Positions 14,689 to 43,685 of a stretch of DNA of 43,685 nt are shown one piece after another. The stretch is from a virus. The notes beneath the pieces were generated by a model. It was not told the origin of the DNA. It was given only the letters and a program-made list of their open reading frames with translations, and made no database searches. Numbering within the stretch: the first letter of the stretch is position 1; each line of letters opens with the position of its first letter. Where the stretch lies: the IMG/VR virus record IMGVR_UViG_3300036398_000576, positions 1-43,685 of that record; one strand, 5' to 3'. The translations under genes and the position numbers were made by a program.

Positions 14689-14725
14689 GCACCCATACCA
14701 GCACGGTGCTGGCAGGAGATACGAG

Positions 14726-14947: not shown

Positions 14948-14964
14948 GCCGCCCCTCCCGGGGC

Positions 14965-14992: not shown

Positions 14993-15019
14993 ACGCATAC
15001 AACAACACGGAGATACGAG

Positions 15020-17067: not shown

Positions 17068-17085
17068 GTAAGGAGGATTCCTTAC
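17068..17085 (+). promoter_or_regulatory. Hairpin burying the ninB ribosome-binding site
   Basis: GTAAGGA (17068-17074), loop GGAT, TCCTTAC (17079-17085), a perfect seven-base stem two bases before the ATG at 17087. The Shine-Dalgarno GGAGG (17072-17076) straddles stem and loop, so folding should limit ninB translation unless ribosomes or a protein open it. Confidence 0.7.
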
Positions 17086-17086
17086 C

Positions 17087-18449: not shown

Positions 18450-18582
18450 TTGGCGCATCGATAACGCGCTAGCCGCCATCAGGATGCGTGGCCTCTGGTC
18501 GGAGGCCAGCACCCTAGTGGCAGAGATCAACAGCCTAAAGGCGGAGATTGCTAGGCTCGAGTGTAAGTCACCTGCACCGTAA
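18367..18582 (+). CDS. Last early-operon gene, hypothetical, 71 aa
   Basis: It begins MTIDNESPAGAWANELKAAP and ends in a coiled coil (VAEINSLKAEIARLECKSP). ATG 18367 has GAGG six bases upstream. It overlaps the previous gene by 83 bases. Its 3' end runs 32 bases into the convergent tailspike gene (18551-20944) on the opposite strand, leaving no room for a terminator between the operons. No family recognised. Confidence 0.65.
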   Translation: MTIDNESPAGAWANELKAAPWGYGQERDWRIDNALAAIRMRGLWSEASTLVAEINSLKAEIARLECKSPAP

Positions 18583-27998: not shown

Positions 27999-30031
27999 TA
28001 TTTAGCCTGCACCACCACGAATCGACCGTTGTTATCCACAAGCGGAGTCGTGCCTTGCAGCACAGCGTACTTGCCGTCGCCAATGGTCATCAGCTCGTAG
28101 TCATCTAGCTCGGCGTCTTTCGGGATGTTGGCGACTCCGCGGTACTTCCCGAATTGGCTGCGCAATATGGTCAACGTGGTATCTGCTGGCATTCCAAACG
28201 GGAGAATGATCTTGCTGCCATTCCAGTCCGTGACGCCGCCGCTTACAGCGCGCGCAGCTCTTTTTGCGATAGCAGCATCATAGCGACCCGTGTTATCCCC
28301 ACGCTCTGCCATCTCGGCAGCGTAATACGCGCGGAACGCCTCATACGAAACAAGTTCAGATTGCACATCTCCACGATATGCATCGCCAACCACGGCATTC
28401 CATGCTGGACGCAATAAGGTTTCGGTCGGCATTGGATAAGAAGCCTTGCCGATAAGCTTTTTGGTTTCTTCAGAAGGATTCAGCAGTTCTTCGCCTTTTA
28501 AGATTTTGGATGCGACATTAGCAACCAAAACGGTCTCATCTGCAGAGCCAAAGCTGCCTTGTCGCAACAAGATAGAGCCGTCATTAACCATCATGCGACC
28601 AGCCAACGCTGTCACAGGGACGCCCTCTGCAAGCTGTTGCATTACGGCGGTATATGAATCGCGATCAAGCGATCGACTTATTTGCTTCAAGAAATCAGTC
28701 TTTTGCACGGGAGTCATGTTGCCGAGCATATTTGAGAAAGCTTCGGCCTCGCCCTGTTTTAACAAGCGAGTCGGCGCACCATACTCTTTGCGCATTGTTT
28801 TCCCAATCGTTGCGCGATTCTTTAGCTCTGCTGTAAATGCATCCGGGTTGACTGGGTCAAGTTGCCCAACAGGCATCAGCCCTCGAGCTTCTGCAAACTG
28901 GATTGGGTCTTTATTTCTATCCGTAATAATTTGCGCAGCCGACTTTTGCAGCACGTTATAACGAGCAGATCTGTTGGCAAATCCTTCTTGATCTGGTGCA
29001 GGCTTTTCGTTTTGCAAAGCAGAATTAATTTGATCAGGGCTCATTCCTGCAAAACTTGCCGCCATAGCGCCAATGCGGAATGACTCTTGATATTCAGCAT
29101 ATGCCTTGGCATCTAATCCACCAGCGGCAAACTGCGCTCTACTTAACGGGTTCTTGACAGGATACCCGGCCAGTAACAAAGCTTCCTGATCCTTAATTGT
29201 TTGATTTAGTTGCTCGCGAACTTTTGCTTGCTCCGCTTTACGCTGCGCTTCAATTTCTCGAATGCGACGATCAGCCTCATTTTTAAGAGGGCCGATTGAG
29301 TCAGGGTCGAGCGCATCGAGAAAGGCATATCCAGTCTCGCCTTTTTTCTTATCCAACGCCTTGCGCATGGCATACGGATTTTTATCAATTGCAGTTGATG
29401 CAGCATCTTGCGCGAGAAGAGCCTTTTGCTGTCCACGAAATTTTTCGCGGGCATCAGCATCCGAAATGCGATCGGCAATTAAATCAAGGCTGGACGCCAT
29501 CGGCGCATATTGCGACGGATCAGACAGCACAACGCGACGGGCATCATCTGCGCCTTGCGTAGCCACACGCACAGTCTTGGCAACAGAACTGCGCGCCTGA
29601 TACTGCATTGAGCGGTTCTGAACTTCGAGCCCTTGCAAGCCAGATCGCTGCGCAAACCAGTCGCGCGCCTTGTCAGATTTCAGATTAGGCAAGTACTCGC
29701 CAACCAGCGCGTTGTATCTTTCCTGCGCTGTATCTGCATAGGTCTCAAAATCGTCAGCGGCTTCAGCCTCCTGTTGGAGCGCTTGCTCCTCCTGCATCCA
29801 GCGGCTGGTTAGTTCAATAGACTTGGCTGACGCATCAATCGCGGCCTCATCCTCGCGTCGCTTCTCAACTTCAAGATTACGGCGCTCAATCATTTGCCCA
29901 GCAGCCACAGCACCGCGGGCGATCGCTTCACCGGCCTGCCCTAATCCAGACTGAATGCGCCCGAGTCCACCGACGTCGGGAGCAATGACGCGAGGCGTCG
30001 TTTGCTGTCGATAGAATTCGAGCTTTGCCAT
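27998..30031 (-). CDS. Internal virion protein (T7 gp15 position), 677 aa
   Basis: It begins MAKLEFYRQQTTPRVIAPDV followed by GGLGRIQSGLGQAGEAIA, a common opening of podovirus internal core proteins. Most of the length is helical with long charged segments (RRIREIEAQRKAEQAKVREQ). The C-terminal ~90 residues turn beta-like (WNGSKIILPFGMPADTTLTI; KYAVLQGTTPLVDNNGRFVV). It probably forms part of the ejection tube with its neighbours. It abuts the gp14-like gene (two-base gap) and overlaps the 1504-aa gene by one base. Confidence 0.8.
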   Translation of the reverse strand: MAKLEFYRQQTTPRVIAPDVGGLGRIQSGLGQAGEAIARGAVAAGQMIERRNLEVEKRREDEAAIDASAKSIELTSRWMQEEQALQQEAEAADDFETYADTAQERYNALVGEYLPNLKSDKARDWFAQRSGLQGLEVQNRSMQYQARSSVAKTVRVATQGADDARRVVLSDPSQYAPMASSLDLIADRISDADAREKFRGQQKALLAQDAASTAIDKNPYAMRKALDKKKGETGYAFLDALDPDSIGPLKNEADRRIREIEAQRKAEQAKVREQLNQTIKDQEALLLAGYPVKNPLSRAQFAAGGLDAKAYAEYQESFRIGAMAASFAGMSPDQINSALQNEKPAPDQEGFANRSARYNVLQKSAAQIITDRNKDPIQFAEARGLMPVGQLDPVNPDAFTAELKNRATIGKTMRKEYGAPTRLLKQGEAEAFSNMLGNMTPVQKTDFLKQISRSLDRDSYTAVMQQLAEGVPVTALAGRMMVNDGSILLRQGSFGSADETVLVANVASKILKGEELLNPSEETKKLIGKASYPMPTETLLRPAWNAVVGDAYRGDVQSELVSYEAFRAYYAAEMAERGDNTGRYDAAIAKRAARAVSGGVTDWNGSKIILPFGMPADTTLTILRSQFGKYRGVANIPKDAELDDYELMTIGDGKYAVLQGTTPLVDNNGRFVVVQAK

Positions 30032-30033
30032 GA

Positions 30034-30576
30034 TTATCTACCTGTGTTTCGGAGCATACGCGGGCCGGTCACAGAGACGCGCGGCTTGACTTTGCGGCTG
30101 CTGATTTTAACTTCTTGCAGGTCGTCGATTGTCGGCTTTTGCGGCATCTTTCCGCCAGCAGCCGAGAATGCCATCAGCGCATTTGTGCCAGCCGAGAGGA
30201 TTGCTGGCCCCAACAGCGGCTTCGCAGCCCGCGTTATGTCAGCTTCAAACTCAAATCCTCGGCGACGGCCTTCTCCCTCGTATCGGATATTCAGCGCATC
30301 CAGTTCGGCAGCAGTCGCAGCCTGCGAATACACATCACCAAAAGTCACGTTTTCAAGCAAGTTATATTGCGCACCGGCAGCGCGAGTCTCGCCGAACGCA
30401 GCGCGCGTTTGCCGTCGCTGCGCTTCTTCAGCAGCACCAGCCTCAAGAGCAGCAGCGCGCGCTTGCTCTTCAAGCCCTCGAGCTTGAGTCTCGCCAACCT
30501 TGCGCGCTTGTACAGTCTCGGCAATTGTGCCGACTGCGGCGGCGGCAGCAGCGATAAATGGTATGAACTGCGCCAT
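30034..30576 (-). CDS. Internal virion protein (T7 gp14-like), 180 aa
   Basis: It begins with a hydrophobic segment (FIPFIAAAAAAVGTIAETVQ) and continues as an Ala/Glu/Arg-rich helix (ARGLEEQARAAALEAGAAEE), then FEADITRAAKPLLGPAILSA. Size, N-terminal membrane-active segment and position between gp13-like and gp15-like genes fit the small ejection protein that inserts in the outer membrane. It overlaps the previous stop by one base. Confidence 0.78.
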   Translation of the reverse strand: MAQFIPFIAAAAAAVGTIAETVQARKVGETQARGLEEQARAAALEAGAAEEAQRRQTRAAFGETRAAGAQYNLLENVTFGDVYSQAATAAELDALNIRYEGEGRRRGFEFEADITRAAKPLLGPAILSAGTNALMAFSAAGGKMPQKPTIDDLQEVKISSRKVKPRVSVTGPRMLRNTGR

Positions 30577-31001
30577 TACTGAATCCTCGAATACATCGCC
30601 ATGTCTTGGCCCTGCGTCCCGAATGAACGCATCAAACCCTCATATTCAAATCGCAGCATCTTTGCCCATCGGTGACCGGCATCGAACCGCGCATCGACAT
30701 ACGCCTCAATGCGCCGATACGGGCGGGTGTTGAGGTAGTCATCGACGATCCGCGTCAGACCGATCATCTTCGGGCCAGCGTCCTTTGACAGCCACGCCCA
30801 CGCGGCATATCGGTTCGTCCACATCTCTGCGACGCCTGCGCACATAATCGGCTTGCTGCCATCCAAAATCGTGTAGGCAGGGCCAGCGTCGATCAACTGC
30901 TCGCAGTATTCGTCATCGAATGTCAGCGGAGACATGATCTGTTGCGCGTCTTGCAGCACCATCGCTCGCAGATACTTGGCCTTGAACGAGACGACTTCCA
31001 T
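30576..31001 (-). CDS. T7 gp13-like internal virion protein (GNAT-like fold family), 141 aa
   Basis: Start ATG 31001 (MEVVSFKAKYLRAMVLQDAQ) is chosen because GGAGG precedes it and it forms TAATG with the stop of tail tubular protein B. A longer frame to 31073 lies inside that gene. The block AWAWLSKDAGPKMIGLTRIV and YRRIEAYVDARFDAGHRWAK is characteristic of the phage gp13/DUF2833 group, which has a GNAT acetyltransferase-like fold. In T7 gp13 is needed for head morphogenesis. Catalytic function is doubtful. Confidence 0.85.
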   Translation of the reverse strand: MEVVSFKAKYLRAMVLQDAQQIMSPLTFDDEYCEQLIDAGPAYTILDGSKPIMCAGVAEMWTNRYAAWAWLSKDAGPKMIGLTRIVDDYLNTRPYRRIEAYVDARFDAGHRWAKMLRFEYEGLMRSFGTQGQDMAMYSRIQ

Positions 31002-33877
31002 TAGTCCTCCGTCTTCATTCGCGGGTACATCGCAACGACCGTTAGCGGCAGCGGCTGATCCGCAATCGCCCAAATACGGCCATCAGTTTCGTATCCACCC
31101 GGATACGGGAACTTGTCTGTATCGCCCGTCAAAATAGGTGGCGTTTCGTCCATGTAGTCTGACAGCGATCGGTACAAAATGTAATCGCTCGATGACGGAT
31201 CAGGGCCGACCTTGCCACCAAGGCTAGCGTAAAGCCGCATCACGATCTGGTGGAATCGCTTCGTCTTGCCCTGCGCGGTGCCGTCCGTGGCACCCGAGTC
31301 AATCCGTTGAGTCGCAAGATAGGACGTATACGGCAGGCCGATCTGCGCTCGAGAAGCAGGAACCGGCAGCGTGATCTGGCCGTTGGTCACGGTCAGGTTT
31401 TTAACTTCCGCGCCGTCAGCCAGAGCAGAGAGCGTCTGGCCTTCCATGTGCCAGAGGCCGGAGACAACGCTAGATGTCATGCGCCAACCGCCAGCAGGAA
31501 TCTCATTGTCGTTCGGGAACGGAGCCAGAATCGTGCAGAGCACCTGCTCCTCACTCACATAAGTCGTGATTCTTGCTCGAGCGGTGCGCCATTGCTCGAT
31601 GGTTTCGTCAAAGTAGCGCATCGTGATTTCACGGCCAACATCGCTAGCCGTAAATACGTCATCGTTTATAGCGAGAAATTCGTCTGCTTCGGTTGTTAAA
31701 TAATCGGCACCATCTTCGGTGATCAGCTCAAACACCGATGTGACAAGGAACGCGACATTAGTCGCGCCCCGCACGGTCGCATCACAACCGGGCAGAATTG
31801 ATTCGTTTACAACCCCATCAAATTCAAGCGACGTATCTAAATACACAGCCCCTTGAATATCGTCGTTCTGCTCAAAGCCTTCTGCAAAATACTCGACAAA
31901 CTTGCGTGTGTTAGCGACAGAAACTACCGCGGTTTCTGCAAGCAGAGAACAAGTGTTCTCGAGCAACACCTCGTCGCCATCTTCAAGCAAAATAAATTCG
32001 CTGGTTCCAGTATTTGAGATCGATCGCTCGACCACCATCCAGACATCGTTGACGTCAGCGTCCGGGCTGGTAATGACCTGCACAGACTTGACCTTGGAAT
32101 TCGTGCCAGCGATCGGATGACGGTGCCAGCCGTAGACGTTCTGCTCCCGGTCATACGTCATTCCGAGCAATCGCCCGTTCGACAGTACGATCCAGATGAT
32201 ATTGTCCGGCTCCTTCTGGTATGCCATCTCGACGATGCCGGTCTGCGTGATCTCTGGGTACAGCACGTTCATGTCGCGCGGAACCCATGAGTCAGACTGG
32301 ATGTCAAACCGCAGCTCGATGACACGACGGCCACCGATACGAATGAACAACACCGAATCCTCGACCAGCACCGGCTCCAACTCTCTCGAGCCTTCAGCAG
32401 ACTGGATCTCGTACTTGACGTTCTCGGGGCCGAGCACTTGGTTCGGAGTGATTTCCTGCACCGCAATTTCAGATCCCGCGGTACCAATCAGCAGCACATC
32501 CGATGCCGTCATCCAACGGATCTTGTCGACCGTGCCGACAGATATGGTCAGCGAGATAGAGTTATCCGCGAGGATCTCGCCCAAGGTGTCTGGGCTCATC
32601 GAGGAATAGTCACCGGCTACCGACGCATAGATCTGCTGGTTGCCAGAAAACCACAGCCGATCGCGCCAGAAAGCGACCTTGTACGGGAACGCAGCGCCTG
32701 TCGCCTCGCCCCATGCGCCGATGCGGTAGCGGCAGTCGTCACCGGCAACCACCTCGGCAGGAGCAATGCCCGGGCCGATAATGTCGCAAGTCGCATTCTG
32801 CGCGTCCGTGATCGCCGTAATCTTAACGATGACGTAGCCCGGATGCAGGTACTGCCAAGTCACCGCACCGTCAGACTCGGTGCCCTCTTCGTGTATAGGG
32901 CGCACAGAGCCTGTTGTAGCGGTGTTCTGCGCTTCGTAATACTTGCCATCAGATTTGCGCAGATTCGTCGCTGTGATGCTCTTATTCGTTTCCCACGGCA
33001 CCGTCGTGATGTTGGTCGGCTCTAGCCGGAACAGCATCCCAACGTGCTCGTTCTCAAATATGTTGCTCGAGCAGGTAAGCGAGACGCCAGTACCAGTCGA
33101 GGCACCGAGCGTGAAGTTTTTGGTATCGAGCGGCTCCGTCTGGAACGGGCCGTCAGTCGGCGAGTACGTCGCGAACGCCCAACTTGTATTGCCGCTGCGG
33201 GTCAACGTGCGCGGCGCATAGCCCTCGCAGCCGATATACAGCACATCGCCTGACTGGACGATAGAAAGGGCGCAGCCGCCTTCTGGGCTCGTCAGATCAG
33301 CAACGGCATAGGGCGATGCAATCTCGTAGACCTTTTGCATATCGCCGTTAAAGACGTACGCGCTGTAACTAGTCGTATCAATCGCGTTGCCGAACCAATC
33401 CTTCAGCGAGAATGTATTCGCGCCAGTATTGACGTTCGATACTTGCACATAACGGTTGTTGATCTGCGTCATGCCCTCGACGCCGGTCACATAGAACCAG
33501 TCACCGTTGGCAGGGTCGGTGCCGGTGTAAGTCAGTACGCCCGGGCTGGCATTGGTGATATTGGTGATATCAAGTATGTCACCGAGTACCACACCTCGAT
33601 CGGTGTAGAAGCGCACATACTGGTCGCCGAACTCAAGGATATAAGCCTGATCGAACGAGAACTCAAAGCGCTTGAGATACGAGGCTTTGTCCTGATACTT
33701 GGTCGGCAGCACGAACCGAGTACCGGGCGAGCGCTTGGCTGGCCCCTGCACGGTCGGGATGAACCGCTCCATCTTGTAGCAGGAACTGCTGTACTTCTCA
33801 AAGTCGACGCGACCGGATAGGAGAGGGCCGACCTCGCCGCCGTTGAAGTTAGAGATCGCGGGCGAGCTTTTCGCCAT
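31001..33877 (-). CDS. Tail tubular protein B (nozzle), 958 aa
   Basis: This forms the nozzle of the short tail. The opening SPAISNFNGGEVGPLLSGRV followed by DFEKYSSSCYKMERFIP and GPAKRSPGTRFV is diagnostic for podovirus tail tubular protein B / stabilisation proteins. Further matches are the LWFSGN ... VAGDYSSM segment and the propeller-like central part with many DNDIRW-type turns. Length is on the large side for the family (T7 gp12 is ~790), with extra C-terminal beta domains. It lies directly after tail tubular protein A. Confidence 0.93.
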   Translation of the reverse strand: MAKSSPAISNFNGGEVGPLLSGRVDFEKYSSSCYKMERFIPTVQGPAKRSPGTRFVLPTKYQDKASYLKRFEFSFDQAYILEFGDQYVRFYTDRGVVLGDILDITNITNASPGVLTYTGTDPANGDWFYVTGVEGMTQINNRYVQVSNVNTGANTFSLKDWFGNAIDTTSYSAYVFNGDMQKVYEIASPYAVADLTSPEGGCALSIVQSGDVLYIGCEGYAPRTLTRSGNTSWAFATYSPTDGPFQTEPLDTKNFTLGASTGTGVSLTCSSNIFENEHVGMLFRLEPTNITTVPWETNKSITATNLRKSDGKYYEAQNTATTGSVRPIHEEGTESDGAVTWQYLHPGYVIVKITAITDAQNATCDIIGPGIAPAEVVAGDDCRYRIGAWGEATGAAFPYKVAFWRDRLWFSGNQQIYASVAGDYSSMSPDTLGEILADNSISLTISVGTVDKIRWMTASDVLLIGTAGSEIAVQEITPNQVLGPENVKYEIQSAEGSRELEPVLVEDSVLFIRIGGRRVIELRFDIQSDSWVPRDMNVLYPEITQTGIVEMAYQKEPDNIIWIVLSNGRLLGMTYDREQNVYGWHRHPIAGTNSKVKSVQVITSPDADVNDVWMVVERSISNTGTSEFILLEDGDEVLLENTCSLLAETAVVSVANTRKFVEYFAEGFEQNDDIQGAVYLDTSLEFDGVVNESILPGCDATVRGATNVAFLVTSVFELITEDGADYLTTEADEFLAINDDVFTASDVGREITMRYFDETIEQWRTARARITTYVSEEQVLCTILAPFPNDNEIPAGGWRMTSSVVSGLWHMEGQTLSALADGAEVKNLTVTNGQITLPVPASRAQIGLPYTSYLATQRIDSGATDGTAQGKTKRFHQIVMRLYASLGGKVGPDPSSSDYILYRSLSDYMDETPPILTGDTDKFPYPGGYETDGRIWAIADQPLPLTVVAMYPRMKTED

Positions 33878-33880
33878 GTC

Positions 33881-34483
33881 TTAAAGCCTCGCCAAGATCC
33901 AAGTCTGGTCGGCAAGCGACTCCGGTGGGTTCTCAATCGCATTGGCAATCACGGCATCCTTCACCGCATTGCGATAGTCCTGATATGCCATCTGCTTTTG
34001 CTCTGCGCTTGCGGTCAGCGGCTCTGCGACAAGGTACGCAAGATATGCGGAGAATGCCATGTCAAACGCCGTATCGAACTGCACCGGGTCAGTCACCCGT
34101 GACAGGTATCGCAGTTTCAGCGGGCCAGCTTGATTCGAGAGAATGTTCTTGCCCTCGACGACGTACTCCTGCCCGCCAGTCGAGATTAAATCCGACAGGT
34201 CAGGCGAGGGATACCATTGGCCTACTTGAATGATGCGCAGGCAGTCAGTCGGGATCTGGTACTGATATGACCAGTCCCACAACGGGGTGCTGACATCAGC
34301 GGCAAGGTTTGCTCGCTTGATGCAAAACCGCCAAGAAAAGCGGCGCTGGAGATAATCCCGCGCCATATCAAACACGGCATTCACCTCGCGCGCAGGCTTG
34401 GTGTTATCCGTGAGATTTAGAATGCGCAAATCCCCGAGCTTCGTCAGCGCGAGGTTTGCGATTGCTACATTACTAGCGGCCAT
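33881..34483 (-). CDS. Tail tubular protein A (gatekeeper), 200 aa
   Basis: It attaches to the portal and to the nozzle. The N-terminus SNVAIANLALTKLGDLRILN followed by TDNTKPAREVNAVFDMARDY and LQRRFSWRFCIKR is the well-known gp11-like pattern. Length is normal. The ATG at 34483 and the three-base spacing to the nozzle gene fit a coupled pair. Confidence 0.93.
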   Translation of the reverse strand: MAASNVAIANLALTKLGDLRILNLTDNTKPAREVNAVFDMARDYLQRRFSWRFCIKRANLAADVSTPLWDWSYQYQIPTDCLRIIQVGQWYPSPDLSDLISTGGQEYVVEGKNILSNQAGPLKLRYLSRVTDPVQFDTAFDMAFSAYLAYLVAEPLTASAEQKQMAYQDYRNAVKDAVIANAIENPPESLADQTWILARL

Positions 34484-34501
34484 CGGGAAACCCCGAGACC
34501 G

Positions 34502-34696
34502 TTAAGCCGGGGGCCAAATGTCTTGAATGATCGCCTGCTTGATCGTCTCGATCGCAAACAGGACTTCATCCTTCTGCATACTGGCCGCAAGATCGACGCG
34601 CAATTCGACGTCGGTGGTGGCCGTAGAGGAGCTGCCCTCTGTGACGTTACGAACGCCCTGTTCGCCGCGGTCAATGCCGTAGAAACGCTCTGCCAT
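34502..34696 (-). CDS. Small conserved head/tail-region protein, 64 aa
   Basis: It begins MAERFYGIDRGEQGVRNVTE, a Thr/Ser linker, then DVELRVDLAASMQKDEVLFA and an IKQAIIQDIWPPA tail. I have seen this pattern (ERFYGxDRGQ, DVExRVD, A-KxxVLxAIExIxxAI) in short proteins between capsid and tail genes of podoviruses; function unassigned. The hairpin at 34717-34744 precedes it. Confidence 0.7.
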   Translation of the reverse strand: MAERFYGIDRGEQGVRNVTEGSSSTATTDVELRVDLAASMQKDEVLFAIETIKQAIIQDIWPPA

Positions 34697-34716
34697 GTCT
34701 GTTCTCCGTGAAGAGA

Positions 34717-34744
34717 GGGGCGAGCCAGTTACCCAGCCCGCCCC
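34717..34744 (-). terminator. Hairpin after the decoration-like gene
   Basis: GGGGCG/CGCCCC six-base stem with a mismatch and a further GC pair, read on the - strand right after the stop of the 167-aa gene. It is followed by TCTCTTC, only partly U-rich. It could be a weak terminator or an RNA-processing or stability element that sets the level of abundant head mRNA. Confidence 0.4.
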
Positions 34745-34750
34745 GCTTTA

Positions 34751-35254
34751 TTACGCCGCGTAACGACCGATGAGCTTCACCGTGCCGGTCGCGTCAGCGT
34801 CGGCGGTCAGCGTGAAGGCCACATCGTAGAACACCGAAGGGTCGCTGGTAAGACCGAGGGCGTCCCACAGTTCCTTGCCGCTGTTCGCAATCGTGAACAC
34901 CGCAGCTTCGTGCAGAACATCCACGCCGTTGAGCGCACCGTCCTTGAGGGACAGGGCCGAGGCAAAGAAGTCAGCATCCTGCACAGCGCCGCCATCCTTG
35001 GCGGTGCGATACAGGCCGATGTCCGAGATCGTCGTCGTGCCGATGTCCGGCGAGTAGATGCGCAGATCCGTCATGACCGCATTCGAGGGAACGCGGAACA
35101 TCCGGTAGGTCGAGCCGGTGTTATCACCAGAGGTGATGGCGACCGTCGCAACCTCGATACGCTCGAAGCCACCATCAACCCGAGGGCTGTTGAGGACTGC
35201 GGGCAACGCATCTGCATTGGTAACAAGGGTTGATTTAACTGCTACAACTGCCAT
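34751..35254 (-). CDS. Probable head decoration / minor structural protein, 167 aa
   Basis: It begins MAVVAVKSTLVTNADALPAV and is beta-rich (RIEVATVAITSGDNTGSTYR; MTDLRIYSPDIGTTTISDIG), ending VAFTLTADADATGTVKLIGR. Proteins of this size and style directly after the capsid gene are usually head decoration or auxiliary head proteins. The ribosome-binding site includes GGGAGTAA, like several other structural genes here. No catalytic residues seen. Confidence 0.65.
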   Translation of the reverse strand: MAVVAVKSTLVTNADALPAVLNSPRVDGGFERIEVATVAITSGDNTGSTYRMFRVPSNAVMTDLRIYSPDIGTTTISDIGLYRTAKDGGAVQDADFFASALSLKDGALNGVDVLHEAAVFTIANSGKELWDALGLTSDPSVFYDVAFTLTADADATGTVKLIGRYAA

Positions 35255-35268
35255 TTTCCTTTACTCCC

Positions 35269-36156
35269 TTATTCCGCGCAGAGGATGTCAACGATCTTCT
35301 TCTCTTCCGTGCGCGTGGCACCGAAGGTACCCATCAGATAGATCTGATACGGGTGCGAAGAAAGATCACGACGCTGCGTGATGTCAGACATGATGTCGTT
35401 CCACATACCCAAGTGAACGCCCGAGGGCACCCACACAGGGCAGCGACGATGGCTCGAGCTCGTCGGCAGACGCTCGGTGTGGATGAAGTTGATGCCCAAG
35501 AACTGCATCACCTTGCCATCCTTCATCACCGGAGTGTCGCTGTTGAAGTCGCTCGAGACCACTTGGATCTGGCCCAAGAGGTCGTCGTGCTGCTCGGCAG
35601 AGATGGCGCAATACACCGGCTCTGCGTCGAGATCGACTTCGTTTTCCATCAGGATGCGACGCGCTTCGCGCAGCTTGTCGACCGTGAGGCCCACGTTGCC
35701 AGAGGCAGCGTAGTTCACAGCAACGCGCTGGTTCGACGTATCGAAGCCCGTGGTCGTGCCACCAGCCTCGCCCGTCTTGTTGTCGCCGAGCATACCGCTG
35801 ATGATCACATCGTCCATCGCACGGCCCATCGCGTACAGACCGTTCTGCGCGTAGGCAGACTGCGGGTCAGCGAGGAGACGGAGCTTGTCGAAGTTGTCGA
35901 TCAGGTCGGCCCAGTCGAAGTCTTCCGGAAACACCCAACGACGGTTGTTCGGGGTGTTGACCGGGACGATCGGCTGGTAGCGGGTCGAAACCGCACGAGC
36001 AGCGGTAGCACCGTACTGCGTGACGACTTCAGACGCCTTGCCCTTGTACGAACCAGTCTGCACAGAGGTGCGCAGCTTGGAGCCCTTTTGCTGCAACAGC
36101 AGCGAGATGTTAGTGCCGTATTGGACGGCATAAACTGATGCAATATTGTCGGCCAT
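35269..36156 (-). CDS. Major capsid protein, 295 aa
   Basis: It forms the icosahedral shell. MADNIASVYAVQYGTNISLL begins the N-arm. The N-terminal portion (GKASEVVTQYGATAARAVST, then RYQPIVPVNTPNNRRWVFPE) and the central DFDWADLIDNFDKLRLLADP match capsid proteins of environmental podoviruses with the HK97 fold. The C-terminus (SDITQRRDLSSHPYQIYLMG) is typical of the P-domain end. The ribosome-binding site TTTGGAGGGCTATC is very strong. The gene sits behind a terminator and long leader (36157-36392), so it probably has its own expression control. Confidence 0.9.
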   Translation of the reverse strand: MADNIASVYAVQYGTNISLLLQQKGSKLRTSVQTGSYKGKASEVVTQYGATAARAVSTRYQPIVPVNTPNNRRWVFPEDFDWADLIDNFDKLRLLADPQSAYAQNGLYAMGRAMDDVIISGMLGDNKTGEAGGTTTGFDTSNQRVAVNYAASGNVGLTVDKLREARRILMENEVDLDAEPVYCAISAEQHDDLLGQIQVVSSDFNSDTPVMKDGKVMQFLGINFIHTERLPTSSSHRRCPVWVPSGVHLGMWNDIMSDITQRRDLSSHPYQIYLMGTFGATRTEEKKIVDILCAE

Positions 36157-36392
36157 GATAGCCCTCCAAAAAAACTAAATAAGTAGTGTTTCTCGGATAG
36201 CTTGTCCGTTGCCGGGGCCAAATCCTTGTGGGATACGCTCCCACCGCTCGGTCGTCTTTCCGACTGTCAGCGGGGTCTTGCGACTTGCCCGATCCTAAAA
36301 AAAGAGACCCGAGATCTCTCCCGGGTCTCAACGCCTTTCGGCTCTCTAGGAGATACGCACGAATGATACACACGCGCGTACCACACTAGCAA
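36157..36392 (-). promoter_or_regulatory. Capsid gene leader with hairpins
   Basis: This 236-bp gap between scaffold and capsid genes is the longest on the late strand apart from 13932-14340. On the - strand it contains in order a small GCC-GAAA-GGC hairpin (36333-36342), the terminator (36297-36329), and a GTGGGA/TCCCAC hairpin (36228-36244). It ends in an AT-rich stretch and a very strong Shine-Dalgarno. A promoter for the capsid gene is expected downstream of the terminator, but I see only a weak candidate (TTGGCC ... TATCCG), so none is claimed. Confidence 0.6.
36297..36329 (-). terminator. Rho-independent terminator between scaffold and capsid genes
   Basis: On the - strand GAGACCCG, a ten-base loop, CGGGTCTC, then seven T. 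The stem is a perfect eight pairs (36304-36311 with 36322-36329), the A-tract on the + strand is 36297-36303. It reads in the direction of late transcription. Confidence 0.85.
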
Positions 36393-37250
36393 CTACTCTG
36401 TAAATAGCTCCGGGTTCGCCATACGCTGCAACCGCATCATCTCCTCGATTGCACCCTGCCGAACTTTTTCGTCACGGTTCATGTAACGGCCCATGAACTC
36501 CTGATCAGCAAACATTCCAGCGATCTTGTTCTTCGCTGCCTGCGGGGTGAGCGCACCACCAGCGGTGCCCTCGGCGGCCACGAACGTGCCCTCCGCAAAC
36601 GACGCACCGATCGAATGGAAGAGCTTCAGCATCGGCCCGGTGCCGATCGCTTCCTCGAGCCGCTCAAGCGAGTCAGCGTCGATTCCAGCGTCTGCACCAA
36701 ACTTTGCCACAGCCCGCTTGGCAAGCTCGACGTTTTGATCAGCCGCGGCACCCCACTCCCGGCGCAGGGCGGTGAAATCTTCCTCGGACTTCGACAGGAA
36801 CGACTCGCGCTCCATCTCTATCCGCTTGCCGGACGTTTCGTTCCACCACTCGGCGAGCCCCTTGGCTTGCTTGCTTGTCAGCCCAAGCTCATGCAGGACG
36901 GGAGAGACCGCCTGCGCGAACGAGCCGTCATCCCCTTCCGGGACTGGCAGTTCGTACTTATCGGCGCTCTCCGGGCGTCCTAGGCGGTTATAGACGGCAC
37001 TCCAGCCCTCTGCGTCGTCGTCCGACTTGGGGGCGAGAATGGTGCGTCCAGCTTTGTCAGCGCCGAATACCTTCTCGAGGTTCTGGTAGGAGAGCAGCGC
37101 GTCGGCTGGCCCCTTCCACCCCTTGGCCTTGACTAGTTCACCTAGTTGACTAGCCGTGCCTTGGTCGATCCCTTCCGGCGCGTACCACGCGGGAGCCGCT
37201 GCCGGAGCAGTCGGGTTGCCTGCTGGTGCAGACCCTTGATCGTCACTCAT
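36393..37250 (-). CDS. Scaffolding protein, 285 aa
   Basis: It assists prohead assembly and is lost before packaging. After a Pro/Ala-rich start (APAAAPAWYAPEGIDQGTAS) comes the typical ELVKAKGWKGPADALLSYQN, LEKVFGADKAGRTILAP and LGRPESADKYELPVPEGDDG pattern of podovirus scaffold proteins, then helices (LTSKQAKGLAEWWNETSGKR) and a C-terminal helix-turn (FADQEFMGRYMNRDEKVRQG). It lies right before the capsid gene, the usual order, and overlaps the upstream Bbp19-like gene by eight bases. Confidence 0.88.
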   Translation of the reverse strand: MSDDQGSAPAGNPTAPAAAPAWYAPEGIDQGTASQLGELVKAKGWKGPADALLSYQNLEKVFGADKAGRTILAPKSDDDAEGWSAVYNRLGRPESADKYELPVPEGDDGSFAQAVSPVLHELGLTSKQAKGLAEWWNETSGKRIEMERESFLSKSEEDFTALRREWGAAADQNVELAKRAVAKFGADAGIDADSLERLEEAIGTGPMLKLFHSIGASFAEGTFVAAEGTAGGALTPQAAKNKIAGMFADQEFMGRYMNRDEKVRQGAIEEMMRLQRMANPELFTE

Positions 37251-37554
37251 CGATGAATTCCTCTTGCAGATTGGTCAAGGTCTTTTCGTCCAGTTGCAGC
37301 GCCTCGACAATGAGCTGCACCGTTTCTTGTCGGCCAACCATGCGACCGACCTCGAACATATCCGTCGCGCCTGTTTTGTCCGATGCGACCGGGGGTTTCC
37401 CGTAACGGCTGAACCGCTTCAGATGGGCAATGATGATCTGGCCGTCTTCGGACAATTTGTTGGTCTTGCCGTCGATTAGCGCCCGCTTGTAGGCACGGGA
37501 GCGGAACATCACTCGAGCGATTCTCGAGCGCATCACAGAGATCATGCTCGGCAT
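37243..37554 (-). CDS. Bbp19-like phage protein, 103 aa
   Basis: Start ATG 37554 (MPSMISVMRSRIARVMFRSR) is chosen because it forms TGATG with the preceding stop and has GAGGA upstream; an in-frame TTG at 37572 is less likely. The LIDGKTNKLSEDGQIIIAHL segment and KTGATDMFEVGRMVGRQETV region match what I know as the Bbp19-like family, encoded beside head genes in Bordetella phage BPP-1 and relatives. Role unknown, possibly virion assembly. Confidence 0.75.
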   Translation of the reverse strand: MPSMISVMRSRIARVMFRSRAYKRALIDGKTNKLSEDGQIIIAHLKRFSRYGKPPVASDKTGATDMFEVGRMVGRQETVQLIVEALQLDEKTLTNLQEEFIDE

Positions 37555-38618
37555 CAGCGCTTCCTCAACCAAGTCAGATATTCAGCGCCTTCCTCTGGCT
37601 CCCACCAGACTTTGACCATATCGGGGTGGTTGTCCGGCAGCAGAGGGTTGATCGTCGTCAGCCCGCAGGGCGATAGCGCGTTATCGCGGAACCCTCGCTC
37701 TTTGGCGTAGCGGTCGTACACCTTGTACGAGGCGACCTTCATCAAGTGCATCGTGATTCCCGAGATCGGGTCTTTCAGCACCGAGTAAGCGCTTTCGTGC
37801 TTATGGCCTGCGACGTAGATGTGATCGCGCGTACCGAGCATTGCGGCCTTCATCGGGCCGTGAGCCGGATTCCAGATTGACGATCCTGCGTGGTCGTGGC
37901 GGGCGTTCACACGCACCTCGCGCCCGTTCGGAAACTTCAGCGCTATGCGGGCCTCGGATGACTTGTACAACGTGCTTTGCTGTTTTGCGATCCACTTGAT
38001 GGGGTCTCCAGATCCAGACCACATATCGTGATTGCCGCCGATCATATACAACCACCGGCAGCGATCGATGAACCATTCGGCCAGACGCCAAGCCTGTGCG
38101 GCAGACGTTGCCTGTTCTCCGTAAAGCCTTGCTAGACGGCCCACCCAGTTATTGGTCGTATCGCCCACATTGCAAGCGAACAGCCCCTCGGTGCGATTGC
38201 AAAGGTCTGTGTGCCGCTCGAGCGCCTCGATGTCGGTGCCGTCGTCGTCAACGTGCGGGTCGCCAAAATGCAGCAGGCCGATCGGGCCGCCAATCTTGAT
38301 GCGAATCGGGATGAGCTTTGACGCCTCTTCGTGTTCGCGCTTGTGGGCAAACTTGCGCTTGCGCTGCTCAATCAGCTCGTCGATGGATACGTCGTCGTCC
38401 GGCAGCGGCGTGAATTCGAACTCTTTCTCGACTGGCGTCTGACGTCCGGGCTGGTATGTCGATACTGGAATCGACGCGCCCTGCGCCTTCATGCGCTTGA
38501 GGCGGTGCAGGAACGTGCGCTCATTGAGCCCCAGCTCCGCGGCTGCTACCGCCCGTATCCCATTGTGCTTGCGTAACGTCTCGAGTATCTGTTCGTCCGT
38601 TGCCTTTGCGGCTACCAC
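37554..38618 (-). CDS. Calcineurin-like metallophosphoesterase with N-terminal helix-turn-helix, 354 aa
   Basis: Residues 10-45 (ILETLRKHNGIRAVAAAELG, then LNERTFLHRLKRMK) look like a DNA-binding helix-turn-helix. The catalytic domain has the full metal set: FGDPHVDDDG (D120, H122), VGDTTNNW, GGNHDMW, ARHDHAG and AGHKH. Such enzymes include SbcD/Mre11-like nucleases and cyclic-nucleotide phosphodiesterases. Combined with the HTH, a DNA-directed role (end processing or host DNA) is plausible but unproven. It lies between lysis and head genes, coupled to the Bbp19-like gene by TGATG. Confidence 0.85.
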   Translation of the reverse strand: MVAAKATDEQILETLRKHNGIRAVAAAELGLNERTFLHRLKRMKAQGASIPVSTYQPGRQTPVEKEFEFTPLPDDDVSIDELIEQRKRKFAHKREHEEASKLIPIRIKIGGPIGLLHFGDPHVDDDGTDIEALERHTDLCNRTEGLFACNVGDTTNNWVGRLARLYGEQATSAAQAWRLAEWFIDRCRWLYMIGGNHDMWSGSGDPIKWIAKQQSTLYKSSEARIALKFPNGREVRVNARHDHAGSSIWNPAHGPMKAAMLGTRDHIYVAGHKHESAYSVLKDPISGITMHLMKVASYKVYDRYAKERGFRDNALSPCGLTTINPLLPDNHPDMVKVWWEPEEGAEYLTWLRKR

Positions 38619-38622
38619 AGCA

Positions 38623-38889
38623 TCACCTTTTGCGAGTTACTTTGATGCCGAGTTCCTTTCGGCGCTCTGTTGTCCGGACATCGTCCCTGACAGCAGTCCA
38701 TTCCAAATGCCCGTCAATGAGCCTGTATTGTTCTTTATGGGTGAGCGCGCAATCGCAGCACTCGGTGTAGGTGTATCCCTTTACTCGGTACCAGATTCCG
38801 TCGTACATCTGGACGACAGGTACATTCGCATCTCGTCTTGCCTTCGGGCCACCAGCCCGGGCAGAACCTTTCCGCCGCCTTTTGTCCAC
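38623..38889 (-). CDS. Conserved small phage protein with CCxC, 88 aa
   Basis: GTG 38889 is the best start, with GGAG eight bases upstream; ATG 38808 is the alternative but lacks a Shine-Dalgarno. The N-terminus is Lys/Arg-rich and overlaps the lysozyme gene by 109 bases. The rest (GIWYRVKGYTYTECCDCALT, then HKEQYRLIDGHLEWTAVRDD) resembles short phage proteins with a CCDCxLTH motif, possibly a metal site. Function unknown. It is followed four bases later by the metallophosphoesterase gene. Confidence 0.65.
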   Translation of the reverse strand: MDKRRRKGSARAGGPKARRDANVPVVQMYDGIWYRVKGYTYTECCDCALTHKEQYRLIDGHLEWTAVRDDVRTTERRKELGIKVTRKR

Positions 38890-39317
38890 TTCATGAACTC
38901 CTGCGCAGCGCCCCAGTAGTCACCGCGGTTATGTTTCATGCGCAACGAAGAGCGTTGCAGATTTCCGAGGCCCACGTTGAAAGAGAAGGAAACAAGGCTG
39001 TCGAACTGGCCTTGACGATCAGGAGCAATAGCGCAATATCGGGCCACGCCGCGCTCAAATCGCGCAAGGTCTTTAGCAAGTAGATCGTCCACTTCAGCCA
39101 TAGACCAAACACGGTCGTCCTCGGGGTTTAGCGGATAGTCCCGGCGCAGAGGAAAGTTGCCATTGTCTGCCGTTCTGACCACCGGCAACCGTGCCTGCTC
39201 CGGGTACAGAACATGGCCGACTCCCACCGTCCACAACTTGGCGGGGCAAAGATACGGTCGCAGGCGCACTCCTTCGTGATGCTTGATCGCGGCGAGCGCC
39301 TGCTCGCTTATGTTCAT
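38781..39317 (-). CDS. Endolysin, T4/P22-type lysozyme (GH24), 178 aa
   Basis: It cuts peptidoglycan to lyse the host. ALAAIKHHEGVRLRPYLCPA contains the catalytic Glu (E15) in the usual HEGxRLxxY context, and LWTVGVGH (residues 28-35) is the conserved TxGxGH turn. The SLVSFSFNVGLGNLQRSSL and GLVARRQDEMRMY regions complete the family pattern. No signal peptide, so it depends on a holin. The last ~12 residues are unusual and lie in the overlap with the 88-aa gene. It is coupled by ATGA to the holin-like gene. Confidence 0.9.
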   Translation of the reverse strand: MNISEQALAAIKHHEGVRLRPYLCPAKLWTVGVGHVLYPEQARLPVVRTADNGNFPLRRDYPLNPEDDRVWSMAEVDDLLAKDLARFERGVARYCAIAPDRQGQFDSLVSFSFNVGLGNLQRSSLRMKHNRGDYWGAAQEFMKWTKGGGKVLPGLVARRQDEMRMYLSSRCTTESGTE

Positions 39318-39796
39318 TTCTTAAATGCTTGCGTCCCAAACCAAAATGCAATGATGCTCGAAAGAATCAACATTTCATCTTCGCTGAACACATTTTCCAT
39401 AGCCACGGCAAACGGGATGCCGGTGCTATATGCGTACCATACACCAGTTGCATTCAAAACAACAAGTTCCAGCACAAAGATATAAGTCACTACAGGTCTG
39501 ACAGAAGCCCGCAGATTGATGATCCATTGGCTGGCACCCTTGCCGATTTCCATGTCGTGAGCGTACAAAGACGAGCGCTCCTGCGCTTGTGTCTGCATAG
39601 CTATCTGCTCGGTCTTAATCTCCTCGATGCGCTCCTGCGACTGAAATCCCCGAGCCGCCATCTCGAGCTCCTTCTCCTTTTGCATGGCGAGGATCGCCAG
39701 TTCGTGGCGCTTGTCCTGCTTGTCTTGGAAGAAATCGAGGATCTTGGGCAGGCCGCCAGCCAAAAACGAGAGGAACGTCGAGAGCATCGTCATCAT
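39314..39796 (-). CDS. Holin-like membrane protein (3TM family), 160 aa
   Basis: There is a hydrophobic N-terminal helix (MLSTFLSFLAGGLPKILDFF), a long charged coiled coil (ELAILAMQKEKELEMAARGF), then two membrane segments (RPVVTYIFVLELVVLNATGV and EMLILSSIIAFWFGTQAFKK). This layout matches phage holins of the three-TM / gene-transfer-release type. Position directly before the lysozyme supports a holin that releases it. ATG 39796 has AGGGG eight bases upstream. Confidence 0.8.
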   Translation of the reverse strand: MMTMLSTFLSFLAGGLPKILDFFQDKQDKRHELAILAMQKEKELEMAARGFQSQERIEEIKTEQIAMQTQAQERSSLYAHDMEIGKGASQWIINLRASVRPVVTYIFVLELVVLNATGVWYAYSTGIPFAVAMENVFSEDEMLILSSIIAFWFGTQAFKK

Positions 39797-39807
39797 AGCG
39801 GCAACCC

Positions 39808-39960
39808 CTACTTATCGCGTTTGTTGATCAGGTCGAATAGCGTCTTGATCTTGTCCTCAAGAACAGCGACGCGCAGATCCAGCTTCGACAGGACAATGAT
39901 TAGCGTAATCATCGCAAGGATGACCGGCCACGCTCGAGTAAAGATCTCGAACAGTTCCAT
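39808..39960 (-). CDS. Single-span membrane protein of the lysis cassette, 50 aa
   Basis: Hand-translated from ATG 39960: MELFEIFTRAWPVILAMITL, IIVLSKLDLRVAVLEDKIKT and a short tail. One transmembrane helix (about residues 10-24) is followed by a short coiled coil. It starts two bases after the previous stop and ends before the holin gene. It may be a second holin, an antiholin or a spanin-like helper; no family recognised. Confidence 0.65.
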   Translation of the reverse strand: MELFEIFTRAWPVILAMITLIIVLSKLDLRVAVLEDKIKTLFDLINKRDK

Positions 39961-39961
39961 G

Positions 39962-40201
39962 CTACTTGTCCGCTTTGGTGGTCGAGAGCTGGTTGATCAG
40001 GTTGAATATGTCGTCGAGGGTTCGGCGAATGTGCTGCACATCGTCCCGGTAGTCAGCCTTGGTGACGTACATATGCGGCAGATTGCGCACATCCCGGTCG
40101 AGTTTCTCGATTGAACGGGTCAGGCTATTTAAAATCCAGCCGACCATGAAGCCAGACGCGCCGACCAGAATGTTGAACATCATCTGCGCATCCATCGTCA
40201 C
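39962..40201 (-). CDS. Membrane-anchored coiled-coil protein of the lysis cassette, 79 aa
   Basis: One N-terminal membrane segment (FNILVGASGFMVGWILNSLT), then a charged helical tail (TRSIEKLDRDVRNLPHMYVT, YRDDVQHIRRTLDDIFNLIN). This arrangement is common in small phage proteins near holin genes (holin/antiholin or i-spanin-like). Its ATG overlaps the portal stop by four bases (ATGA). It lacks the proline-rich lipoprotein partner of classic Rz/Rz1 pairs. Confidence 0.7.
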   Translation of the reverse strand: MTMDAQMMFNILVGASGFMVGWILNSLTRSIEKLDRDVRNLPHMYVTKADYRDDVQHIRRTLDDIFNLINQLSTTKADK

Positions 40202-41865
40202 ACTCCCGGAACTGCTCTACGCGGGGCCGATGCCGCGATCTGCTCGGCCTTGGCAAATCGTTCGGCGGCTTGGCCTGCGATCGGAGCGGCGGCCAGCAAC
40301 TGCTCTGTCTGCTGCTGTTGCGCGTCCTCGGCATCCATCGCCTCGAGCTCCTCATCGGTGCGCAGCGCCTTGGCGGGCACACCATTGGCCTCGGCAATCA
40401 GCTTGATGGCCTCATCCGCATTGATGCGGCGCAGGACAGACATATCGCCAGAGACCTGTGCGACCGGCAGCATAGCCTCGATCGTGCGCAGGATACCCGC
40501 GGCCTCTTCGGTCTTCATCAACCGAGCGAGCGGCCCCTGATACTTCGGCAGGATCTCGCCACCCGATGACAAGTAGTCGAGCAGAACAGGCGGAGGCTCC
40601 GGCAGGTTAAAGCTTGCCGAGAGCAGGTCGAGCTCGCGGTCGATGATCGGCCCCAAGAACTCTGACTGTTGGCGACCCATCGTCGGCCCGAGCAGAGCGC
40701 CCTTCTCCTGCGCGCGCTGCAACACTTCGGTCGCAGTCATTGCCCGCGGCTCTTCGACAAGAATCTGGAACAGCGTCACCAAGAACGAGTCGTTTACGGC
40801 TCGGCGCTTTTGATCAGCCATCTCGATACCGATCGGCAGGTTGCCGCCTGTCATCAGAGGCTGCACCAGCGGCGTACCGTCGTCACGGAGGTACCCGTAG
40901 TTCAACGCATTGGGGCGCACGGAGAAGGCATTCAACGCCCCCTCTTCCGTCAGAATGAGCGGCGGATCAACCATGCGGTGCGCCATACGGAGCATGGTCT
41001 TTTCCATCTCTTGCAGGGATTTGATGTCGGCCAGAGCCTCCATCGCAGGAGAGCGCCCATAAATCTCACGCGGGCCGGTAACGTACCGACCGACCGCATA
41101 CGGCATCACTCGGTAACCGCTATCCTCGAGCAGCACCTGCCCCTCTCGAGAGACGTAGCGCGACAGGTATCGCATACCGTCAGCGCCAGCCATGCCTTCC
41201 TTGTAATCCGTGTTCGGGCGAACGCAATGCACAAACTCGAACATTGTGTTCGGCGCGCTCTTGGCCTGCTCGACAATTCCACGCGGCAACTTGCCAGCCC
41301 AGTTCGGGATCTGGATTGCTTGACGCGCAGAGAGCTGGAACGATCGGTAAACCGTATCGACGCGGCCAACGTGGTCGAGATCGATGACGAGCTCCGAGAG
41401 CGGGATCGCGCGATATCGCAGCGTGACGCCCGGCACCTCGTCGATAAACATCGCAGACGTACCGAATGCGCCGAGACTCATGTAGCACTCGAAAGCCTGA
41501 CTCGCAAAGTTTGCAGTCGGCGAGTAACGCTGACGGAACATGACGTCTCGCAGCGTGTCGCACCAGCGGCGCACAGCGATGTCGTCATCGAGCTCTGGGA
41601 TGCCGGTATGCAATCCGTGCCAGAGCTGCGTCGCAGGCGTCAGCATCGAATCCATCGCAGCAGAGAACCGCGGCAGAGCGCGCTGGGCAGTCGAGTCGAA
41701 GATCTTCTCTGATCGCTTCTCGCCCGGTGTACGCCAGCCAGTCATCTCGGCCATCGTCGGCCAGACTCGCTCGGCTACTTCCTGCCAATGGTTCTCCCAT
41801 GTACCACGCGCGCCCTTGAGACGATCGTAGCCCTCGAGGACTTCAGCAGCGCGTGAATCAGCCAT
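40198..41865 (-). CDS. Portal protein (head-to-tail connecting family), 555 aa
   Basis: It forms the dodecameric ring through which DNA enters and leaves. The opening RAAEVLEGYDRLKGARGTWE, HWQEVAERVWP and KIFDSTAQRALPRFSAAMDS, then LTPATQLWHGL, are diagnostic for podovirus head-to-tail connecting proteins. The middle (GPREIYGRSPAMEALADIKS, LQEMEKTMLRMAHRMVDPPL) and VEEPRAMTATEVLQRAQEKG also fit. The C-terminus is helical and Gln-rich (EDAQQQQTEQLLAAAPIAGQ). Length is usual. It starts TAATG-coupled to the 95-aa gene. Confidence 0.94.
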   Translation of the reverse strand: MADSRAAEVLEGYDRLKGARGTWENHWQEVAERVWPTMAEMTGWRTPGEKRSEKIFDSTAQRALPRFSAAMDSMLTPATQLWHGLHTGIPELDDDIAVRRWCDTLRDVMFRQRYSPTANFASQAFECYMSLGAFGTSAMFIDEVPGVTLRYRAIPLSELVIDLDHVGRVDTVYRSFQLSARQAIQIPNWAGKLPRGIVEQAKSAPNTMFEFVHCVRPNTDYKEGMAGADGMRYLSRYVSREGQVLLEDSGYRVMPYAVGRYVTGPREIYGRSPAMEALADIKSLQEMEKTMLRMAHRMVDPPLILTEEGALNAFSVRPNALNYGYLRDDGTPLVQPLMTGGNLPIGIEMADQKRRAVNDSFLVTLFQILVEEPRAMTATEVLQRAQEKGALLGPTMGRQQSEFLGPIIDRELDLLSASFNLPEPPPVLLDYLSSGGEILPKYQGPLARLMKTEEAAGILRTIEAMLPVAQVSGDMSVLRRINADEAIKLIAEANGVPAKALRTDEELEAMDAEDAQQQQTEQLLAAAPIAGQAAERFAKAEQIAASAPRRAVPGV

Positions 41866-42152
41866 TAGTTACTCCAAGGCAGCGGCTTCGGTGCCACGGT
41901 CAGCGCAGCAGGCAAAGAGGCGTCTACGTCTTTCTCGACAAACGCTTTGTCCACACGCGCCCAAACCCATGACAGGACGGTATCTTCCGTCAGATCGGCA
42001 TACGACACAAACGGCTGACCCGGAGCGCCGAGGTCTAACTTGCCGCGCATTGAGTTGTTACCCTCACACGCCCATGCGACTTGCGTGACCACATCGCTGT
42101 GACCATCAAGGCTCGGCGCAACATACAGACCTTCGACTTTCCAATTAGCCAT
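41865..42152 (-). CDS. Conserved small phage protein following the fibre gene (copy B), 95 aa
   Basis: Identical in protein to copy A (3782-4069) for the first 93 residues; the last two differ (SN here). All seven nucleotide differences in the shared part are synonymous, so the protein is under purifying selection in both contexts. The stop overlaps the portal ATG (TAATG) and supplies the GGAGTAAC ribosome-binding site. Likely fibre-associated, by position. Confidence 0.8.
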   Translation of the reverse strand: MANWKVEGLYVAPSLDGHSDVVTQVAWACEGNNSMRGKLDLGAPGQPFVSYADLTEDTVLSWVWARVDKAFVEKDVDASLPAALTVAPKPLPWSN

Positions 42153-42200
42153 TACTTGTCCTCGTCAGCGGGCAGCGGCGTGTTGCCTTCTGCAAGCCAT
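41874..42200. repeat. 327-bp duplicated segment, copy B (partner 3791-4117)
   Basis: Same segment as copy A at a constant offset of 38,083, with eight differences. Its downstream side joins the portal gene, whereas copy A joins a tailspike gene. Confidence 0.95.
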
Positions 42201-42313
42201 GCTTGGAATTCGGGATACTCGTCCGTGCAGGTCAGGCGGCACAAACCATCGTCGTCAATGCGAGCGTAGATTTGTGGCTCGCCTTCGTTTTTCGGCAGCA
42301 TCTTGTACGTCAC
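42152..42313 (-). CDS. Small protein between fibre and 95-aa gene (copy B), 53 aa
   Basis: Hand-translated from GTG 42313, which overlaps the fibre stop (GTGA) and has GGAG nine bases upstream: MTYKMLPKNEGEPQIYARID, then CTDEYPEFQAWLAEGNTPLP. The C-terminal ~16 residues match copy A (4069-4218), the N-terminal part does not. As with the fibre tip before it, the variable half and constant half may move as a matched set. Function unknown. Confidence 0.65.
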   Translation of the reverse strand: MTYKMLPKNEGEPQIYARIDDDGLCRLTCTDEYPEFQAWLAEGNTPLPADEDK

Positions 42314-43685
42314 AGTTCTGCACTCCATCCGAGGTAGGCTGATGAGTTTGCGCCCGTTGCTTGCGTGATGTTACCCGCAACAATGTTTGCGGCAACCGTA
42401 AAATTAACCGCGCCATAAGCCGTTGTGGTAAGAACGCCCGCATACGCAGGAACAGCAGAACACGCTTGAACGCCACCTCCGGCTTGATAAAGTTGATAGT
42501 CAGTCGCGGTTCCTGATTGTTCCAAAGCAGACGGCGCAGTACGCATTGTTACTGGATACGGTATCAATGCGCCTGCTGATGTCGTGCTATAGCATTGAGC
42601 AAAACCAAATGGGTAATTAGCGCCTGTAGATTTAAGCCGATAATAATACCGCTGACACAGCATCAACTCCGTGCCAAAAGGTCTACGCTCAAACGGAGTG
42701 GCGACGGAGCCGGTTTCTAGTTGGACTCCGGTGACGTACCAAGTGGCGCTGAGAGTTGCCATTAGGTTTGTTGCGCCAGTTGCGCTGTAAATGCCGGTTG
42801 TTCCAGTCCAAGCGCCTGCTGTTGCAGATTGAGATGTCCCAGAGCCAAGCGAAAACGTAACTGCAACGCCGCGATCCGTGTTGGTGGCCCATGTTCCTGT
42901 GGTATCGCCCGCAATCGTAACGGTCTTATATTCCCAAGTGTTTGCGGAATTAATAACGTAAGTAAACGGGTAGTTGCGAGTGTTGCCGTTGTTATTTAAC
43001 GCGCCGCCAAATGTACCCGTGACGCTTGAACGAACCCAAAACGACAGCGTAACTGTCAATGCACCCGCTGCGCCCCACCCCCAATCTGCGATGTTGTTCC
43101 CTTCAACAAATTGACGGAAAAGGTACTGTTGCGTTGCACCTAGTGACGCATCTGCGGTGGTAACGGTCATTTTGGATGAATTAGCAAATCCGGCAGGAAC
43201 AACCGTGTCTTGCTGGACGGTAAATACACCATCAGCAGACTGGCCAGAACCCAACCAACGGTCAATAGTGTATGTGTTTGCGGTGCTGTTAACTGTCACC
43301 GCCGCACCAGCATTGCGCTGGTCGATCCGCATATCACCGTTGATGATCCGGTTACGGAAGAACAAGCCGTTGCTGTTAAACGCAGCAGCGACCGTGCCGC
43401 CAGCAGAGACAGCCACTTCGTTCGCAGCAGGAAAGTACACGCCCGTGTCGGTGTCGCCCGTGTTCGTCACAGTCGGAGCAGCAGCCGTACCGTCTGCGTA
43501 CTCGACCTTGGTCGATACCGCGATCACGCCTGTGGAGTTAGCAATAGTGGCAGCAGCAGTACCGTCTTTCGCTTTGAGGTTCGTCACCTCGACGTTCGTC
43601 GCATCCAGCGTGGTTGCGTTGGCAACACCAAACGTCTGGTCAGCGCTAAACGTGTTGGCGGTGCTAGTGACCAAGCCAAGCAGGT
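42310..43685 (-). CDS. Tail fibre, variable-tip copy B, 5' end off the window
   Basis: The frame stays open to the window edge, so the start is missing; the ORF start at 43674 is an internal Leu codon. It matches copy A (4220-5695) in the shaft and in the [20 protein letters not shown] region, but the last ~95 residues (GFAQCYSTTSAGALIPYPVT ... YLGWSAEL) are unrelated. If 43685 continues at 5590, as the 127-base identity suggests, the frame is kept and the complete protein is 493 residues with the same docking peptide. Role: receptor-binding fibre. Confidence 0.85.
   Translation of the reverse strand, partial: LLGLVTSTANTFSADQTFGVANATTLDATNVEVTNLKAKDGTAAATIANSTGVIAVSTKVEYADGTAAAPTVTNTGDTDTGVYFPAANEVAVSAGGTVAAAFNSNGLFFRNRIINGDMRIDQRNAGAAVTVNSTANTYTIDRWLGSGQSADGVFTVQQDTVVPAGFANSSKMTVTTADASLGATQQYLFRQFVEGNNIADWGWGAAGALTVTLSFWVRSSVTGTFGGALNNNGNTRNYPFTYVINSANTWEYKTVTIAGDTTGTWATNTDRGVAVTFSLGSGTSQSATAGAWTGTTGIYSATGATNLMATLSATWYVTGVQLETGSVATPFERRPFGTELMLCQRYYYRLKSTGANYPFGFAQCYSTTSAGALIPYPVTMRTAPSALEQSGTATDYQLYQAGGGVQACSAVPAYAGVLTTTAYGAVNFTVAANIVAGNITQATGANSSAYLGWSAEL
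43559..43685. repeat. 127-bp perfect repeat at the window end (partner 5463-5589)
   Basis: Identical over exactly 127 bases to 5463-5589 and ending with the window. It marks where the assembly path probably re-enters itself at 5590. Confidence 0.95.

Follow-up and report, generated by a model that had tools for sequence, protein, structure and literature searches.

Gene content of the window

The window, by which we mean the whole 43,685-nucleotide stretch of viral DNA analysed here, carries two copies of a fibre gene and of its neighbour, a DUF7936 gene, each pair in a different setting (Table 1). The DUF7936 copy near the left end lies directly upstream of a tailspike gene, as it also does in loci L083 and L085, and the copy near the right end lies directly upstream of the portal gene, as in L009, L010, L011 and L036. 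We refer to positions 1–5462 as the arm and, for reasons given below, to positions 5590–43685 as the circle. The circle encodes a head-tail connector that scores 372 bits against a Pfam cut-off of 27, and the large terminase, the major head protein and the tail proteins all lie within this same part of the window. Its portal family is that of the podovirus BcepC6B, the Pelagibacter phages HTVC100P and HTVC024P and the Stenotrophomonas phage BUCT708, a group with genomes of 34–44 kb into which the size of the circle falls. Unlike in these known podoviruses, the best match of its portal in the phage collection is only 44% identical, and a megablast search of positions 35000–43685 against phage records returned no nucleotide match.

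The genes at 1763–3778 and 18551–20944 were also considered as portal copies and rejected, both being beta-helix tailspikes. The two are homologous and occupy different places in the genome, forming a second shared receptor-binding module in addition to the fibre cassette.

Table 1. Features of the window, with coordinates counted from its first base
Feature	Position	Strand	Basis
Predicted complete circular podovirus genome, 38,096 bp, portal PF12236/phrog_332	5590..43685	.	gene order across the join shared with 31 loci; G002
Overlap node X, contig-end copy	43559..43685	.	exact identity with 5463-5589; 127 is the largest k of JGI metaSPAdes (PMC7171226)
Overlap node X, internal copy; putative entry point of the foreign arm into the circle	5463..5589	.	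exact identity
Second shared stretch Y, side copy, 149 bp	3882..4030	.	
Stretch Y, second copy	41965..42113	.	
Putative foreign arm, P22-like podovirus	1..5462	.	gene order as in L083, L087, L088, G019, G021; tetranucleotide profile
Head scaffold, first 79 aa, cut by contig start	3..239	-	84% identical to L088 scaffold start; G019 orthologue phrog_8865
Second side-arm tailspike, beta-helix	318..1748	-	PF13229
Side-arm tailspike, beta-helix	1763..3778	-	PF12708
DUF7936 gene, side-arm copy	3782..4069	-	PF25590/phrog_7802
Side-arm fibre, 491 aa	4220..5695	-	phrog_4492
Fibre gene start common to both alleles	5590..5695	-	identical in circle join, side allele and L144
Small cassette gene	5705..6019	-	phrog_18574; 95% aa identical in L144
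Tail protein	6016..7827	-	phrog_5939
Large terminase TerL	9306..10682	-	phrog_2, E 9e-21
Circle's own tailspike, closes late operon	18551..20944	-	beta-helix; homologous to 1763-3778
Major head protein	35269..36156	-	phrog_3437, 257 bits
Portal / head-tail connector	40198..41865	-	PF12236, 372 bits; phrog_332
DUF7936 gene, circle copy	41865..42152	-	phrog_7802 (PF25590 found for side copy)
Fibre gene of circle, C-terminal part; continues into 5590-5695 to give 493 aa	42310..43685	-	

The 127-bp overlap and the closure of the circle

The two copies of X agree at 127 of 127 bases and a mismatch lies directly outside the match (5462/43558), just as an earlier note on this DNA had described. The identity itself is unsurprising, since X merely closes off a more extended homology, between 3790–5589 and 41873–43685, that takes in the DUF7936 gene with the greater part of the fibre gene and contains other exact runs of 149, 119, 86 and 77 bp; what is surprising is that the match is cut at the contig end at exactly 127. 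Identity between the two copies reaches 92–100% in DUF7936 and 98–100% near X, and is about 40% in and just past the last part of the fibre gene. Positions 4556–5589 are 86.8% identical to the contig-end copy at the offset of X, and a backward exact run of exactly 127 occurs there at one of 1,034 positions, namely the last. In JGI-style metagenome assembly, metaSPAdes is run with -k 33,55,77,99,127 (PMC7171226), and an exact match that stops at the contig end at the length of the largest k therefore points to a de Bruijn overlap.

Overlaps of the maximal k at contig ends are a documented signature of assembly-graph breakpoints (COBRA, PMC10914622). Like the self-circular metaSPAdes and MEGAHIT contigs of that study, the window has an exact overlap of this length where paths meet, and in both cases the closing overlap leads to a circular phage genome. 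Unlike the COBRA end overlaps, that of the window lies 5.46 kb inside the contig, which would be because the path came in from another phage, and a comparison of the two ends misses it. Counting against a closed circle, IMG/VR gives the record no end-repeat class, "linear" being the class for records without end repeats.

As a control set, 15 long relatives were rebuilt from the same collection. The exact value of 127 bp was found in five of them, as an end-to-end overlap in two (G002 and G019) and as an internal overlap, which we call a lasso, in three (G001, with a circle of 37,776 bp; G021, 37,398 bp; G005, 36,868 bp); others show 62, 72, 99 or 123. These recurrences, together with the COBRA paper, support the proposal of the earlier note that the repeat is a graph overlap at k = 127. 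By locus, the lasso contigs are L113/L114 (G001), L117/L118 (G021) and L119/L120 (G005), and their closures are invisible if only contig ends are compared. Lassos are not confined to fibres, since that of G021 could not be traced to a fibre gene.

Closing the window at X gives 43685 − 5589 = 38,096 bp, the same size class as the lasso circles (36,868–37,776 bp), in support of the earlier suggestion of a small podovirus. The portal and the sequence at 7.6–8.7 kb lie on the same strand and 54–4,566 bp apart in all 31 related loci that have both flanks, whereas in the linear window they are about 34 kb apart and in the reverse order. The order in these 31 loci, fibre region and then portal, fits the window only if 43685 joins 5590, which supports the closure of the circle. 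G002, a record of 36,261 bp that has a 127-bp overlap between its ends, runs collinear with the circle once this is closed and is without 1–5462. The contig thus carries at its end an exact overlap of length k, and the join restores both the gene order of the relatives and the fibre gene: read on the minus strand, 43685 to 42310 and 5695 to 5590 together encode 493 aa in one frame with a single terminal stop, the same intact fibre that the earlier note had predicted. From these comparisons, the reading of 5590–43685 as one complete podovirus genome of 38,096 bp is strongly supported. In the closed circle the late operon would run unbroken through the terminase, the tail and fibre cassette, the portal, the head, the tail, the internal proteins and the tailspike; this is supported by the gene order in relatives, in agreement with the continuous operon claimed before.

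A single independent contig, L144, reads from 43102–43685 straight into 5590–6511 with 97.0% identity over 1,519 bp (584 bp at 99.3% on the left of the join, 95.6% on the right). Of the first 690 bases of its fibre, 686 agree with the joined circle allele but far fewer with the side allele, and where the two copies in the window disagree, L144 nearly always has the base of the circle. A search of viral contigs found no exact match in any of them to the side-allele context together with the right flank, and matched the right flank alone only in L144. Since L144 (L144:1-9018) is itself P22-like, encoding a P22-type portal upstream, it confirms that this fibre sequence is continuous, not that the phage of the circle carries that fibre. 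L144 is an example of a near-identical fibre in a phage whose portal is unrelated to that of the circle.

Which allele belongs to the circle depends on a second exact repeat. Stretch Y, 149 bp inside the DUF7936 gene, is longer than k and sits between the fibre alleles and the portal; the assembler would have crossed it twice, so the phase of the fibre alleles would rest on paired-read resolution. The fibre allele of the circle may therefore be swapped with that of the arm phage. By arithmetic, the circle would then measure about 38,083 bp, and its closure holds either way.

The P22-like arm and the origin of the contig

Leftward from its fibre, the arm encodes DUF7936, two beta-helix tailspikes and, after these, a head scaffold of which 79 aa from the start are present. 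The arrangement of DUF7936, spike and scaffold is common to loci L083–L093; in one of these, L087:565-3987, the order of the tailspike genes is swapped relative to positions 318–3778 of the arm. The complete-size records of the arm type, G019 and G021, have the P22 portal PF16510/phrog_156 (1.9e-173) and G019 also has the scaffold phrog_8865; L144 likewise has a P22-type portal, and the arm's own portal position lies outside the window, which unlike a full P22-like genome holds only 5.46 kb of the arm phage. The portal of the circle was found in none of the arm-type records by a portal search that included positive records. A TerL search of the same records also gave no match, a weak result as the search had no positive control, and it is the portal search that carries the point. 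The tetranucleotide distance of the arm, 0.309, lies outside that of all 66 circle windows (0.130–0.251).

Judged by gene order and composition, the arm is a piece of a different, P22-like podovirus rather than a variant allele or second path of the circle genome, and the contig is accordingly chimeric. The earlier note had described the contig as a complete circle plus an alternative path; its circle is strongly supported, by the 31 loci and G002, and its alternative path is contradicted by synteny. The crossover lies somewhere to the right of 5462, at a point that cannot be placed exactly because both phages have X, and probably the remainder of the fibre start as well, L144 being 95.6% identical up to 6511.

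We consider it very probable that the contig is an assembly-graph lasso and a chimera in one, a complete 38.1-kb circular podovirus with a foreign 5.5-kb P22-like tail. A de Bruijn assembler with a largest k of 127 would have begun in the P22-like fragment 1–5462, crossed the 127-bp X in the fibre gene, which would also be present in a second podovirus of the same sample, made one turn of the circular (or circularly permuted) 38,096-bp genome of this second phage, and halted on meeting X again. The merge would be possible through near-identical cassettes of fibre and DUF7936, most likely the result of a recent exchange of receptor-binding cassettes.

The alternative path of the earlier note, taken as a strain bubble in the fibre region of one phage, draws on the fibre and DUF7936 genes that arm and circle have in common. 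Strain variation can moreover explain at least one other lasso, that of G001, in which tail and head agree at 93.7% beyond the node. For the window this reading is very improbable: past DUF7936 the arm consists of a pair of tailspikes and a head scaffold with counterparts in loci that have P22-like genes, its composition differs from that of the circle, and neither the 76 portal loci nor the 30 loci resembling 1–1760 include one that has both. A genuine genome of 43.7 kb, hybrid or simply larger, with its fibre cassettes in duplicate and a pair of head modules, is also very improbable: although the record reads as a single sequence and recombination between direct repeats is possible in principle, the overlap at the end equals k precisely, and 11 long relatives with the portal of the circle (31–38 kb) have no nucleotide match to 1–3781. 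We also know of no precedent for two unrelated scaffold and portal sets in one genome, which counts against such a phage.

We give hardly any credence to the 127 bp being a true direct terminal repeat, T7-like, of a linear virion genome. Short terminal repeats do occur in podoviruses (PMC10563150), but this one lies within the coding frame of the fibre and reaches a contig end in just one of its copies, and other records have the same length of 127 elsewhere in their sequence.

The shared receptor-binding cassette

The biological point that is left is the cassette on which the two phages would have been merged. The cassette formed by the tail gene at 6016–7827, the small gene at 5705–6019, the fibre and DUF7936 adjoins both portal types, whole or in part. 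At its N-terminus the protein of 6016–7827 resembles that of G005, which has the portal type of the circle, and is unlike those of L144 and L145, of the P22 type; the sequence that follows is common to both types, and the 3′ end of the gene is nearly identical to that of L144. It appears somewhat more probable than not to us that podoviruses unrelated in portal and head module (PF12236 type and P22 type) exchange in nature the whole receptor-binding cassette, comprising the 3′ end of the 6016–7827 tail gene, 5705–6019, the fibre and DUF7936, at 95–99% DNA identity, with the N-terminus of the tail protein staying typical of each virion type. An identity this high suggests that the exchange was recent, and L144 may itself be a chimeric assembly. 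Modular receptor-binding proteins are known to be exchanged across genera, with a conserved N-terminal anchor and exchanged C-terminal parts (PMC10408124, PMC10386132), and the kept N-terminus and shared remainder of 6016–7827 fit this pattern. Unlike in those cases, here a run of genes appears to be common to podoviruses with unrelated portals.

For curation, a useful result in an otherwise ordinary record is that a "linear" entry of 43.7 kb becomes what is very probably a complete genome of 38.1 kb to which a foreign tail is attached, and lasso contigs with an internal overlap would conceal whole genomes as well as chimeras in public virus collections. For the phages themselves, a fibre cassette common to podoviruses with unrelated portals may point to competition for one host, and if the exchange of the cassette is true, two unrelated phages would target the same host receptor.
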